The notes beneath the pieces are model-generated. The model did not search any database, was not told the DNA's origin, and saw only the letters and a program-made list of their open reading frames with translations. 32,915 bases of DNA from Candidatus Aenigmatarchaeota archaeon (lineage in GTDB: Archaea; Aenigmatarchaeota; Aenigmatarchaeia; QMZP01): contig JAFCEK010000003.1 in assembly GCA_017609225.1 (NCBI GenBank), forward strand, positions 1 through 32,915, given 5' to 3'. The translations under genes and the position numbers were made by a program. Of this stretch, positions 15,318 to 29,807 are shown in pieces (the first letter of the stretch is position 1; each line of letters begins with the position of its first letter).

Positions 15318-15906
15318 ATGGATGCAATAGAATGCATCAAGACTAGAAGGGCTGTAAGGGAATATGCAGGAAAGGAAATATCAAAGGAGATTCTGAAGGA
15401 TATAATTGACTGCGCAAGGCTGGCTCCGTCTGCAAGAAACCAGCAGCCATGGGAGTTTGTGGTTGTTACAGAAAAGGAAATGCTGGAAAGGCTGGGGGAT
15501 ATAACAGAATACGGGGATTTTATCAGGAATGCTGCTGCCTGTGTGATTGTATGCTGCGATGGGAGCGCAAAGTACTACCTGGAGGATGGTTCAGCTGCAA
15601 CCGAAAATATACTACTTGCAGCCAGGGCATATGGCATTGGCTCCTGCTGGATTGCGGGGGACAAGAAGCCGCACTGTAGGAATATAAAAAAGCTTCTGGG
15701 AATTCCTGAAAATATAATGTTGCCTCCTTGCAGCTTGGTTCGGCAACAGCTGTTGAACCAGAACCATACATCCATTGTTTGAAATAATGGTTTTCTGGTT
15801 CAACATAAAGATAGTGAGCATAGTTTCCATGGGCTATCCAAAAGGGAAAGCAATGCCGTACGGGAAAAGGAATCTGGAGGATGTTCTGCACTGGGAAAGG
15901 TTCTAG
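15318..15906 (+). pseudogene. Nitroreductase family protein interrupted by a copy of structured repeat element R
   Basis: N-terminal part MDAIECIKTRRAVREYAGKEISKE...LLGIPENI; after removing 15718-15805 plus one TAA, the frame continues KIVSIVSMGYPKGKAMPYGKRNLEDVLHWERF*. Confidence 0.85.
15718..15805 (+). mobile_element. Structured repeat element R, copy 1 (88 bp), flanked by TAA on both sides
   Basis: TGTTGCC...GGCAACAGCTGTTGAACCAGAACCAT...ATGGTTTTCTGGTTCAACA; two hairpins (GTTGCC/GGCAAC and TGTTGAACCAGAA/TTCTGGTTCAACA). Confidence 0.8.
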
Positions 15907-16478
15907 CCCCTGCTCTCTCCCTGTATAATTCTGTAAACAACAAGAAGGAGTATAAAGGAAACTATCATCCCGAAAAACACATTCATGCCACCGAAAAACA
16001 CAGACCCCAGATATCCTGCCCATGCAAGGGTTATATGGGCTATGCATTTTCCAATAAGGCTTGCAGCAAGGAATTTTTTCAGGTTGTATTTTATAATGCC
16101 TGCAAGTATTCCAACAATATCATCAGGCAGGGGGGTGGCGGCAAAGAGCACTATTATAGGGAAGGCGCCATGCCTTTCAAACCATTTTTTGCTCTTTTCC
16201 AGGAGTTTTTTGTGTTTTTTCTTTATTGCCTTTCTGCCCCCAAACCCTATTATATATCCTGTGAGTTCTCCAAGGGCGGCGCCTGCCCCTGCTGTAATTC
16301 CAACAATCCATGGGTTTAGTATTGCCCCGAATGCAATTACAACAGCATAGGAAGGTATGGGGAAGATTATGCTTGCATTACCAAGAACACTCACAATAAA
16401 TATGCCCAGATATCCCCAGCTGTCTGCAAGTGACTGGGCCCATGTAATGAACTGGGTGCCAAGAGATGCAATGTCCAT
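15903..16478 (-). CDS. DedA/SNARE-associated (VTT domain) membrane protein
   Basis: GNASIIFPIPSYAVVIAFGAILNPWIVGITAGAGAALGELTGYIIGFGG...ATPLPDDIVGILAGIIKYNLKKFL. Confidence 0.85.
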   Translation of the reverse strand: MDIASLGTQFITWAQSLADSWGYLGIFIVSVLGNASIIFPIPSYAVVIAFGAILNPWIVGITAGAGAALGELTGYIIGFGGRKAIKKKHKKLLEKSKKWFERHGAFPIIVLFAATPLPDDIVGILAGIIKYNLKKFLAASLIGKCIAHITLAWAGYLGSVFFGGMNVFFGMIVSFILLLVVYRIIQGESRG

Positions 16479-17001: not shown

Positions 17002-17583
17002 GTGACAGTAATGGATGTTTATGAGGCGGTTCTGAAGAGAAGGACTATAAGGATTTACAAACAGAAGCCGATAGATTACGATATCCTGGAGAAGTGCGTG
17101 AATGCAGCAAGGCTTGCTCCTTCAGGCGCCAATCTTCAGCCACTGGAGTATGTGATTGCTGATGATGAAAAAATTCTGCCAGGGGTTTTTGAAACCCTGA
17201 GATGGGCGGGTTACCTGAAAAACGGGGCACCGCCAGAGGGAAAAAGGCCAAAGGCATACATTATAATCCTGGGAAACAGGGAAATCAAGAAATCTGGCTT
17301 TGAGTATGATGCCGGCCTTGCTGCAGGCAGTATCTGCCTGACTGCACTTGAACATGGTCTGGGCTCCTGCATAATAGGTGCAGTTGAAAGGAAAAAACTA
17401 AGAAAACTTCTGGGCATACCTGAAAGCAGGGAAATATGCCTTGTGATAGCCCTGGGTTATCCTGATGAAAAATCTGTTGTGGAGGAATCTAAAGGGGACA
17501 TAAAATACTGGAAGGACAAAAACGGGGTATTGCATGTGCCCAAAAGAATGCTGAAAGATATACTGCACAGAAATGGGTTCTAG
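17002..17583 (+). CDS. Nitroreductase family protein
   Basis: DVYEAVLKRRTIRIYKQKPIDYDILEKCVNAARLAPSGANLQPLEYVI...GLGSCIIGAVERKKLRKLLGIPE; probable start MDVYEA at 17011. Confidence 0.9.
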   Translation: MTVMDVYEAVLKRRTIRIYKQKPIDYDILEKCVNAARLAPSGANLQPLEYVIADDEKILPGVFETLRWAGYLKNGAPPEGKRPKAYIIILGNREIKKSGFEYDAGLAAGSICLTALEHGLGSCIIGAVERKKLRKLLGIPESREICLVIALGYPDEKSVVEESKGDIKYWKDKNGVLHVPKRMLKDILHRNGF

Positions 17584-23668: not shown

Positions 23669-24082
23669 ATGAAAAAGATTAAGGTTATGGTGTTTGGGAC
23701 ATTTGACCATTTCCATAAGGGGCATGAATATTTTTTGAGAGAGGCAAAGAGGCTGGGAGACAGCCTTGTGGTTGTTGTGGCAAGGGACAGCACAGTAAAA
23801 AAACTCAAGGGAAGGCAGCCTGACCAGAGCGGGGAAGAAAGAAAAAAGGCTGTTTCTGATTCTGGAATAGCTGACAGGGTTTTGCCTGGAAGCGAAAAAA
23901 ACATCTATGAGCAGATTGAAAAGGAAAGGCCGGATGTTATTTGCCTTGGTTATGACCAGAAATTTTTCACTGAAAATCTCAGGGAAGAACTGGACAAAAG
24001 AGGTATAAATCCCAGGATTGTAAGGCTGGGCTCCTACAGGCCGGATATATACAAATCCAGCATAATAAAAAACAGAAAATAA
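23669..24082 (+). CDS. ribL: FAD synthase (RibL-type cytidylyltransferase-like)
   Basis: MVFGTFDHFHKGHEYFLREAKRLGD (HxGH), LGYDQKF, GSYRPDIYKSSIIKN. Confidence 0.9.
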   Translation: MKKIKVMVFGTFDHFHKGHEYFLREAKRLGDSLVVVVARDSTVKKLKGRQPDQSGEERKKAVSDSGIADRVLPGSEKNIYEQIEKERPDVICLGYDQKFFTENLREELDKRGINPRIVRLGSYRPDIYKSSIIKNRK

Positions 24083-24194
24083 TGTTGCCTCCGTATATCC
24101 GCGACTAAAGTCGGCGGTTTTCTTGGTGAGGCAACAGCTGTTGAACCAGAACCATACATCCACTGTTTGAAAACAATGGTTTTCTGGTTCAGCA
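24083..24194 (+). mobile_element. Structured repeat element R, copy 2 (112 bp), flanked by TAA
   Basis: TGTTGCCTCCGTATATCCGCGACTAAAGTCGGCGGTTTTCTTGGTGAGGCAACAGCTGTTGAACCAGAACCAT...ATGGTTTTCTGGTTCAGCA; abuts the ribL stop, whose TAA is the left flank. Confidence 0.85.
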
Positions 24195-24300
24195 TAAAGA
24201 TCTCAAAGAGCCAAAAAACTACCTGCTTTAGCTGGCAGATGGATGCCCTGTTTGAGAGATTTGATTTTTAAAGAAAAAAAGTCCATACTTAAGTGGTTTT

Positions 24301-27115: not shown

Positions 27116-27150
27116 GTAACCTTTTTTCGGTTAAATATTTAAATAAATAA

Positions 27151-27263
27151 TGTTGCCTCCGTGTATCCGCCTACTAAAGTCGGCGGTTTTCTTGGCGAGG
27201 CAACAGCTGCTGAACCAGAACCATACATCCGCTGTTTGAAAACAATGGTTTTCTGGTTCAACA
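27151..27263 (+). mobile_element. Structured repeat element R, copy 3 (113 bp), flanked by TAA
   Basis: TGTTGCCTCCGTGTATCCGCCTACTAAAGTCGGCGGTTTTCTTGGCGAGGCAACAGCTGCTGAACCAGAACCAT...ATGGTTTTCTGGTTCAACA; fills the gap between rpoA2 and rpl6. Confidence 0.85.
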
Positions 27264-27275
27264 TAATTAAGCTGC

Positions 27276-29807
27276 TTATTTTCCTGTTTTCTTCTTTGGC
27301 TGCTTCTTTTTTTGTGAGCCTGCTTTTTTTGGCTTTATGCCTGCCTCTGGTATCTTTCCTATAAGCTCAAATGCGCCTGTTCCTATGGGGGCAACCTGGT
27401 TCATCATTATGTTTTCAACTGTTCCCCTCAAGAAATCTGTTTCTCCCTTTATTGCGGCAATCGTGAAGTGTTTTTTTGTTTCCTCGAAGCTTGCTCTCAC
27501 AAGAACAGAGGCCTTCTGGCCTGCGATTCCATATCTTCCTATTGCCTTTATCCTGCCTGTTCTTGTCATGAGGTCTGCAAGAAGCATTATGTACCTTATG
27601 TCAACACCAAGCCCCTGCTCCTCCATTGTGTACTGGGTCTGCCTTATTATTGCATTCCTGGCTGCTTCTATTCCAAGCAGGTCCTGGATTTCAAATATGT
27701 TGTTGCTGTAGGTTCTTGTCTTGTCAACACCATTAATCTCAAATGCCTTTTTGAGGTTTGAGCCCAGTGTGTTTATAACCCATTCATTATCCTCCTTTGT
27801 AACAACAACCTGGGTTATTCCCTTTATTCCTTTTATATATGTTTCAAGAAGGTTGTATTTCAGCTTTCTGAGGTTTTTTATGTCTGATTTTTTCGGAATA
27901 ACAACAAGCTTGTCTTTTTCAAGCTTTACTGATGCTGTTCTCATCTTTATCATTTTTGGAATCCTGTTAACATCAATGTTCAGTGCCCTGATTTTTTCAA
28001 GGTCCAGCCTGCATTCAATAAGAAGCTCTGTCAGGTCCAGGATATCGGAAATTATTATGTCCCTAAGTTTGACCTCTTTTATGTTATTTGCTATCTCTCT
28101 TACCTTTTCCAGGTCCTGGTACTCCTTTTCCAGGTAAATCATCATTGTTGGTGTTCTTGGCTCTTTCCTGGCATCAAAAATCTCAAGCATTCTGGGCAAA
28201 CCCAGAGTTACCTGTATGCCGGCAGTTCCTGCAAAATGGTATGTACGCATTGTGTTATGGGTAACAACGCCTTCAAAAGTGGTGAATGTTTCTGTTCCAC
28301 CAACTGTAAGGTCATACACATATTTGGAGCTTGGCTTTACCTTTTCTATTTTTATTATCTCATCCCATACAACATCAGAATATGCCATCTGCTTCATTAA
28401 GGATATCTCATTTTTAATGTCCACCTTCATACCATTTGCCCTTGATTCAAAAATATTTATGTACCTTAGAAGTGTTTCCCTTCCTATTTTGCCTCTTCTC
28501 GTAAAATTATTTACATATCTTGTGGGATATTTGAGTTTTTTTGCAACATCCATAAGCAGGCTTCCGTATCCGGATATCATATCTGTAAAGTCCTGCCTGG
28601 GCATGGTTCCCATGCTGCACAGCATGTCAAGTTTTTCCTGTTTTTTCTTTACGGAAAATCCTATTTCCTTCCTGAATATTTCTGCATATTTGCAGGGTAT
28701 TATGATTGAGAACTGTTTTCCCTTCTGTTTTGTTGCGAAAATTCCGAATCTGGAGAGAAGAAGCATTACGCCGTTTATAAGCTCCTCGGAATTGGAGGAC
28801 GCTCTTATCATTTTCCTGCCCACTGAAACATTTCCATCCCCGTCAAAATAACCTCTTAATATCCCTGATACAAATTCCCTAGTTGCGCCATATGTGAACT
28901 GCGGTATTCTCTTGTTTTTTGAGCCTGTACCGCATGTTTTCTTGAGGAATTTTGACAGAAGAGATGAGTTTATTCTTATATCATGCCCTCTTGCAAATCC
29001 TCTTGTGTTGTCATATTCATTATATGTAAATCCGTAATGTTCAGCAAATGCTCTTATCTGGGAAAGGAATTCAGGATTTGTATTTGAAATGGACACGAAA
29101 TATCTTGTTGAATTACCCTCAGCTATGTATGCCCCCATAAACCAGCCCAGGAACCTGTCAAGCACCAGAACATCAGGCATTTTTTTCTTTGCATGACATG
29201 TATCTACAAATGATTCGAGTTTCAAAACCTGCGTACAATTATCCCTGATATGCCTGACTACGGGTATCCTCTCTCCTTCTACAAGCTCTGAACCTTTAAC
29301 AGGCACTATTTTGTTATTTTTTCTTACAACAAAGGAATGGGAGTCTGTTGCTGTTATTTTTCTGCCTGAAAGCAGGCTTATCCTTATAAGATGCTCAGGT
29401 GCCCTGTGTCTGCTGCATTCCAGCACCTGCCTCCATTTAATCTTTTCATTGCAGGCAAGGCTTGGAACAAATATCCTGTATGAAGATAAATCGCATACAT
29501 CCCATCCGTTTTCAGTGAATCCTGCCATTTTTATCATTCTGTCAACAAACTTTCCTATTTCTGGTGTTGCTGTAATCCCGTCCTTTTTGAGAATTATTTT
29601 TTCTTTGGAGTCAAGGCTCATCTGCGTGGCTGGCTCGGAAAGTGACTGGGCTGTAACAACCCCTACCGGTTCATAGGGATCGTATATGGATTCCCTGTAA
29701 AGCTTTTTCACTGTATCCACTATTTCTTTCTGTTTCTCAGGGCTGGTTTTGCTTTTGTCAAAATACTCCTTTAATTCATTCTGAATCTTGGGTGGCAGGC
29801 TGTTCAT
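27276..29807 (-). CDS. rpoA2: DNA-directed RNA polymerase subunit A'' with intein
   Basis: Exteins YDPYEPVGVVTAQSLSEPATQM and TMRTYHFAGTAGIQVTLGLPRMLEIFDARK flank an in-frame 455 aa insertion. Confidence 0.96.
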   Translation of the reverse strand: MNSLPPKIQNELKEYFDKSKTSPEKQKEIVDTVKKLYRESIYDPYEPVGVVTAQSLSEPATQMSLDSKEKIILKKDGITATPEIGKFVDRMIKMAGFTENGWDVCDLSSYRIFVPSLACNEKIKWRQVLECSRHRAPEHLIRISLLSGRKITATDSHSFVVRKNNKIVPVKGSELVEGERIPVVRHIRDNCTQVLKLESFVDTCHAKKKMPDVLVLDRFLGWFMGAYIAEGNSTRYFVSISNTNPEFLSQIRAFAEHYGFTYNEYDNTRGFARGHDIRINSSLLSKFLKKTCGTGSKNKRIPQFTYGATREFVSGILRGYFDGDGNVSVGRKMIRASSNSEELINGVMLLLSRFGIFATKQKGKQFSIIIPCKYAEIFRKEIGFSVKKKQEKLDMLCSMGTMPRQDFTDMISGYGSLLMDVAKKLKYPTRYVNNFTRRGKIGRETLLRYINIFESRANGMKVDIKNEISLMKQMAYSDVVWDEIIKIEKVKPSSKYVYDLTVGGTETFTTFEGVVTHNTMRTYHFAGTAGIQVTLGLPRMLEIFDARKEPRTPTMMIYLEKEYQDLEKVREIANNIKEVKLRDIIISDILDLTELLIECRLDLEKIRALNIDVNRIPKMIKMRTASVKLEKDKLVVIPKKSDIKNLRKLKYNLLETYIKGIKGITQVVVTKEDNEWVINTLGSNLKKAFEINGVDKTRTYSNNIFEIQDLLGIEAARNAIIRQTQYTMEEQGLGVDIRYIMLLADLMTRTGRIKAIGRYGIAGQKASVLVRASFEETKKHFTIAAIKGETDFLRGTVENIMMNQVAPIGTGAFELIGKIPEAGIKPKKAGSQKKKQPKKKTGK
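28254..29618 (-). mobile_element. Intein with LAGLIDADG homing endonuclease domain inserted in RpoA2
   Basis: Begins SLDSKEKIILKKDG after TQM, ends FEGVVTHN before TMRTYH; LAGLIDADG-like LGWFMGAYIAEGN and VSGILRGYFDGDG; residues 64-518. Confidence 0.92.

Follow-up and report, generated by a model that had tools for sequence, protein, structure and literature searches.

A short repeat of two hairpins interrupts a nitroreductase gene in the archaeal DNA analysed here (the window, a stretch of 32,915 nucleotides). It belongs to a dispersed family that is probably a non-autonomous, ends-only derivative of the IS200/IS605 type, similar to the palindrome-associated transposable elements (PATEs) and mobilised by a Y1 transposase acting in trans. 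The repeat family is new; the PATE, or ends-only IS200/IS605, type is already known.

Interrupted genes and dispersed copies

The nitroreductase gene extends over positions 15318–15907 of the plus strand and consists of 133 codons, the element, and the displaced last 32 codons (15809–15907, stop included), as delineated by comparison with orthologues. The repeat is present at 15718–15805, where an earlier note made from the sequence alone had located it. Deletion of 91 nt (15718–15808, TGTTG...CAACA and one TAA), as proposed in that note, restores a frame of 165 codons and leaves one ATAA. The restored C-terminus reads LLGIPENI followed, across the junction, by KIVSIVSMGYPKGKAMPYGKRNLEDVLHWERF and the stop codon. 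The joined reading matches the nitroreductase family PF00881 (Pfam, 4.8e-26). It aligns without gaps across the junction, and with the same C-terminus, to intact orthologues in at least four genomes (G034, G026, G040 and G032), with 47–58% identity upstream of the junction and 12–15 identical residues out of 32 downstream. The empty allele that the note recommended seeking in related genomes is thus represented by these orthologues, none of which carries the inserted segment. The note had relied on the intact paralogue at 17002–17583 (plus strand); the orthologues are the better reference.

The insertion accounts for the truncated reading frame. A conserved basic pair in the C-termini of the orthologues is absent from the truncated protein, and the gene was probably inactivated by the removal of the 32 residues. 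The remainder of the frame shows no damage, and the element and its nearest copy share 99% identity in the 67-nt segment that was compared, so that a recent insertion is plausible. A second gene is interrupted with an equally exact empty site, where the copy at C10:4012–4131 splits a 409-codon PQQ/beta-propeller frame. Once the two parts are joined, the protein has a match to PQQ/beta-propeller families that spans the junction (PF13570, 1.2e-58), where the repeat pattern of the protein is continuous. Another copy, on contig C47, is found right at the beginning of a chorismate-mutase-like frame and is ambiguous as an interruption.

The genome holding the window (G000, the window being on contig C40) amounts to 880 kb in 79 contigs and is 78% complete. 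Sequence searches found the two-hairpin repeat at about 40 dispersed places in it, three of them within the window, and not merely at three conserved positions. The true copy number is probably higher, because several copies sit at contig ends; some of the contig breaks are probably due to the repeat itself. The 34 complete long copies have a mean pairwise identity of 95.5%. The short form comprises three copies, including the one in the nitroreductase gene, and is devoid of the inner stem of the first hairpin. The two other copies of the window are long and intergenic, on the minus strand and with ATAA at both ends, at 24079–24197 (repeat from 24083) and at 27147–27266 (repeat from 27151), the latter between the frames of rpoA'' and of a ribosomal-protein-like product. 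Most copies in the genome are found outside large reading frames, and their flanks are ordinary genes and intergenic DNA rather than IS605 or PATE palindromes. With 91–121 bp, the copies are too short for a transposase gene, in agreement with the earlier view that the repeat encodes no protein. The description as a mobile unit with defined ends is borne out by the roughly 40 unrelated loci, the two frame-exact interruptions, the empty orthologous alleles and the fixed ends.

Some copies and neighbouring features depart from this general picture. On contig C75 (L070 1289–1485), two elements are fused head to tail, the first being broken at ACATCCA and joined to the GTTGCC of the second, perhaps by recombination or a nested event. 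At C63:10053–10111 (L039 454–512), hairpin 2 occurs alone, without hairpin 1, between flanks TTTATGC...GCATAA, and is possibly a solo end. It was dismissed as the end of a full transposon, as no transposase-like frame was noticed beside it. Within the window, the RNA polymerase subunit A'' frame (27276–29807, minus strand, 843 aa) contains an intein with splicing and LAGLIDADG domains (PF14890, PF14528). A second repeat family of 61 nt has three copies at 1577–1637, 1911–1971 and 2666–2726. The gene pair found in that region (2007–2656) encodes a DUF4258-like protein, below cut-off, and a DUF2283 protein, an arrangement reminiscent of toxin-antitoxin pairs.

Ends and fold of the element

ATAA precedes 36 of the 37 complete copies and also ends 36 of the 37, for a background frequency of 0.93% (P about 3e-72). 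Its orientation relative to the element is the same in all complete copies. On the minus strand, this corresponds to copies located after 5'-TTAT-3', with TTAT again as their last bases. In the nitroreductase gene, ATAA occurs at 15714–15717 and 15805–15808, the first A of the right-hand site being the last base of the stem, and the short copy with both sites occupies 15714–15808. With the IS200/IS605 convention, this element is the minus strand from 15804 to 15714 (91 nt), located 3' of the TTAT at 15808 to 15805. The earlier note had described the direct repeat at the ends as TAA triplets, whereas its length is four nucleotides: ATAA is a fixed 4-nt site and not a TAA duplication.

The sequence at 15718–15805 has the form TGTTGCC...GGCAACA GC TGTTGAACCAGAA...TTCTGGTTCAACA and consists of two hairpins separated by two bases. 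Hairpin 1 (15718–15748, stem TGTTGCC/GGCAACA) is the right end on the minus strand, as indicated by its fold and by compensatory change in relatives. In this copy it is devoid of the inner guide hairpin present in the long copies. Hairpin 2 (15751–15805) is the left end on the minus strand, and its stem TGTTGAACCAGAA/TTCTGGTTCAACA surrounds an IS605-type palindrome. This inner palindrome, GAAAACCATTATTTCAAACAATGGATGTA (15767–15795, minus strand), has a predicted guide AAAA at 15794 to 15791 and an AT after the stem. Palindromic hairpins are therefore found near both ends of the element, the short copies having a single IS605-type inner palindrome. On the minus strand of the long copies, both inner hairpins conform to GAAAACC-stem-GGATRTA, with AAAA directly 5' of the CC...GG stem and AT following it. 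In a pattern scan, the inner hairpin had 70 matches in G000 versus 0–1 in three relatives. The fold is much more stable than those of shuffled sequences, with a z of −5 for the copy in the nitroreductase gene and of −3 to −8 for copies and relatives. A search of the window with Rfam yielded no family over threshold; psRNA14 in one flanking locus (E 0.6) was under its cut-off and was discarded.

Relatives were sought with a covariance model across 156 genomes of the phylum. Matches were obtained only in G012 and G024, which belong to other genera, and 153 of the 156 genomes had none. Several relatives are compact, with 61 bp that retain both stems and the ATAA ends and differ in the loops. In the compact forms of G024, the guide hairpin is missing from both hairpins and ATAA is still found at both ends. 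Over 13 related sequences, 97.9% of the stem cells are paired, four pairs have changed on both sides, and the covariation score was unmatched by any shuffle, values that are to be read with the size of this set in mind. The occurrence of compact, covarying relatives in two other genera indicates that the repeat family is old. A further relative on contig C34 of G024 (L158 1501–1631, 131 nt) has an additional pair of long stem-loops in the first hairpin; inserts are evidently tolerated in the loop region. Pattern scans of viral contigs gave no match. In GTDB genomes, from which the source genome was possibly left out, the sole match was in Brucella and was rejected as it came without the other parts of the element. 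Comparable elements of DPANN archaea were sought in the literature, and nothing on point was returned.

Predicted guide sequences, candidate transposases and proposed mechanism

The guide of IS608 is situated at the 5' foot of the hairpins and recognises the cleavage site by base pairing (AAAG for TTAC, GAAT for TCAA), assisted by base triplets that involve A+42 and T+43 (PMC5934647). By the same pairing rule, a TTAT site calls for an AAAA guide, and AAAA is found at both hairpins of the long copies. AAAA and TTAT may thus be a guide/target pair by analogy with IS608, although this agreement is less than decisive alone because it concerns A-rich sequence near AT-rich ends. An IS605-like element of the genome G014 provides an independent link. 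The palindrome just downstream of its Y1 tnpA (PF01797, 2.7e-42) matches hairpin 2 at 24 of 29 positions, a score reached by none of 3937 control windows. This palindrome is also nested in an outer stem and TTAT lies beyond it. A tnpB-like frame, judged by sequence reading, is located beside the tnpA.

The genome G000 contains one intact Y1 TnpA gene, with the HVH motif and the tyrosine, across contigs C54 and C50. The resident IS200-like element is split over C50 (L044 1–230) and C54 (L042 1240–1841), which overlap by about 107 nt. Its CCACCAGT hairpins are both preceded by the guide AATT, and TTAA occurs close to either end, which fits the IS608 pairing rule. Its ends differ from those of the repeat, and so do those of the degenerate Y1 gene on C63; both were discarded as parents on this ground. 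Judged from its sequence, the resident Y1 TnpA is nevertheless a candidate mobiliser. An autonomous element with the outer stems of the repeat was not found in G000, at 78% completeness, and a search of this genome for TnpB gave nothing over cut-off.

The following mechanism is proposed. The gene-free minus strand would carry hairpin 2 as left end and hairpin 1 as right end, two bases apart. When this strand is single-stranded, a dimer of a Y1 HUH transposase supplied in trans would bind both hairpins. At each end, TTAT would pair with the AAAA located at the 5' foot of the inner hairpin, and the position of cleavage would thereby be set. The element would be excised as a single-stranded circle, with the expected junction GGCAACATTATGTTGAACC, and the donor would be sealed. 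The circle would then be inserted 3' of another TTAT without target duplication. As one TTAT is the target and the other is the right cleavage site of the element itself, its loss leaves a single TTAT.

Several features are not readily accommodated. The three short copies and the compact forms of G024 keep the ATAA ends without full guide hairpins, for which the guide model does not account; either these forms have lost their mobility, or part of the work is done by the outer stems. The outer stems abut the cleavage sites, a layout that differs from that of IS608. Finally, the 5-bp inverted end of the hairpins (TGTTG/CAACA), which arises because both stems begin alike, runs against the definition of PATEs as lacking inverted ends.

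Alternative explanations and known elements

A variant of single-strand transposition, in which the stems abutting TTAT place the cleavage sites and the IS605-type palindromes are optional inserts, is considered unlikely. For this variant, the outer stems flush against TTAT show compensatory changes that preserve them in three genera, the guide-less forms of 61 bp included. Also unlikely is a small mobile repeat like SMR-A of Haloquadratum, which measures about 110 bp and has inverted ends, no duplication and an unknown mobiliser (PMC3119063). The outer stem pair beside TTAT would be recognised and the inner hairpins would be passengers. Size and copy number, in the tens, agree with SMR-A, and the compact forms of G024 consist of the outer stems alone, still between ATAA sites. 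However, SMR-A is set apart by description, as it inserts into IS605 or PATE palindromes and not at TTAT, and the guides agree with the target in about 34 long copies.

A classical MITE is very improbable; it would owe its movement to a DDE transposase and its flanking repeats to duplication of a TAA or ATAA target. The flanking direct repeat and the inverted end TGTTG/CAACA in nearly every copy are what such an element would display. Yet the supposed duplication is invariant (ATAA in 36 of 37) and never occurs in the opposite orientation, although the ends would be equivalent; a single orientation is not expected of a DDE element with symmetric ends. The inverted end is only 5 bp long (the element ends being TGTTGCC/GGTTCAACA). 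The paired hairpins and the IS605-type palindromes are also left unaccounted for. Least probable of all, with hardly any weight, is a dispersed RNA or DNA element with a regulatory or structural role, such as a terminator or a REP-like sequence, selected in place and now immobile. The majority of copies outside large reading frames and the structure kept across genera by compensatory changes would suit such an element, but two genes are interrupted by copies whose empty sites are exact, the insertion site is invariant, no Rfam family corresponds to the repeat and nearly all genomes of the phylum (153 of 156) have no match.

Like the repeat, PATEs, described in Haloquadratum walsbyi (PMC3119063), are devoid of a transposase gene, carry IS605-type palindromes close to both ends, terminate in a fixed oligonucleotide that is part of the target, without duplication, and occur as many near-identical dispersed copies, some ends-only forms measuring about 52 bp. 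One PATE, or ends-only sequence, is known in Halanaerobium (PMC7290912). Unlike in PATEs, each palindrome of the repeat is inside a second long stem abutting the insertion site, the ends are 2 nt apart, with the 5-bp inverted end as a result, the compact forms retain the outer stems and lose the palindromes, and the lineage is different. As the nesting of the stems and the spacing of 2 nt are matters of detail, the repeat is placed within the known kind. The repeat resembles IS200/IS605 elements such as IS608 and ISDra2 in being inserted 3' of a fixed tetranucleotide, in having a hairpin at either end with a guide at the 5' foot by the IS608 pairing rule, and in the AT after the stem. It differs by the absence of tnpA and tnpB and by the same guide and cleavage site (AAAA/TTAT) at both ends. 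Hairpin pairs dispersed by a Y1-type enzyme are also found in REPs and REPINs with TnpA-REP (RAYT). In REPs the foot is a conserved tetranucleotide (GTAG in E. coli), and REPINs consist of inverted pairs, whereas the repeat has a TTAT site and tandem hairpins; no GTAG foot was found at the ends of the aligned copies, and no linkage to a RAYT gene was noticed.

The repeat adds a well-defined ends-only family of the IS200/IS605 type in an archaeal lineage with small genomes. It provides exact empty sites in two genes and a predicted guide/target pair that is directly testable. As long, short and compact forms occur naturally, they can be compared to learn which parts of the hairpins a Y1 transposase needs.
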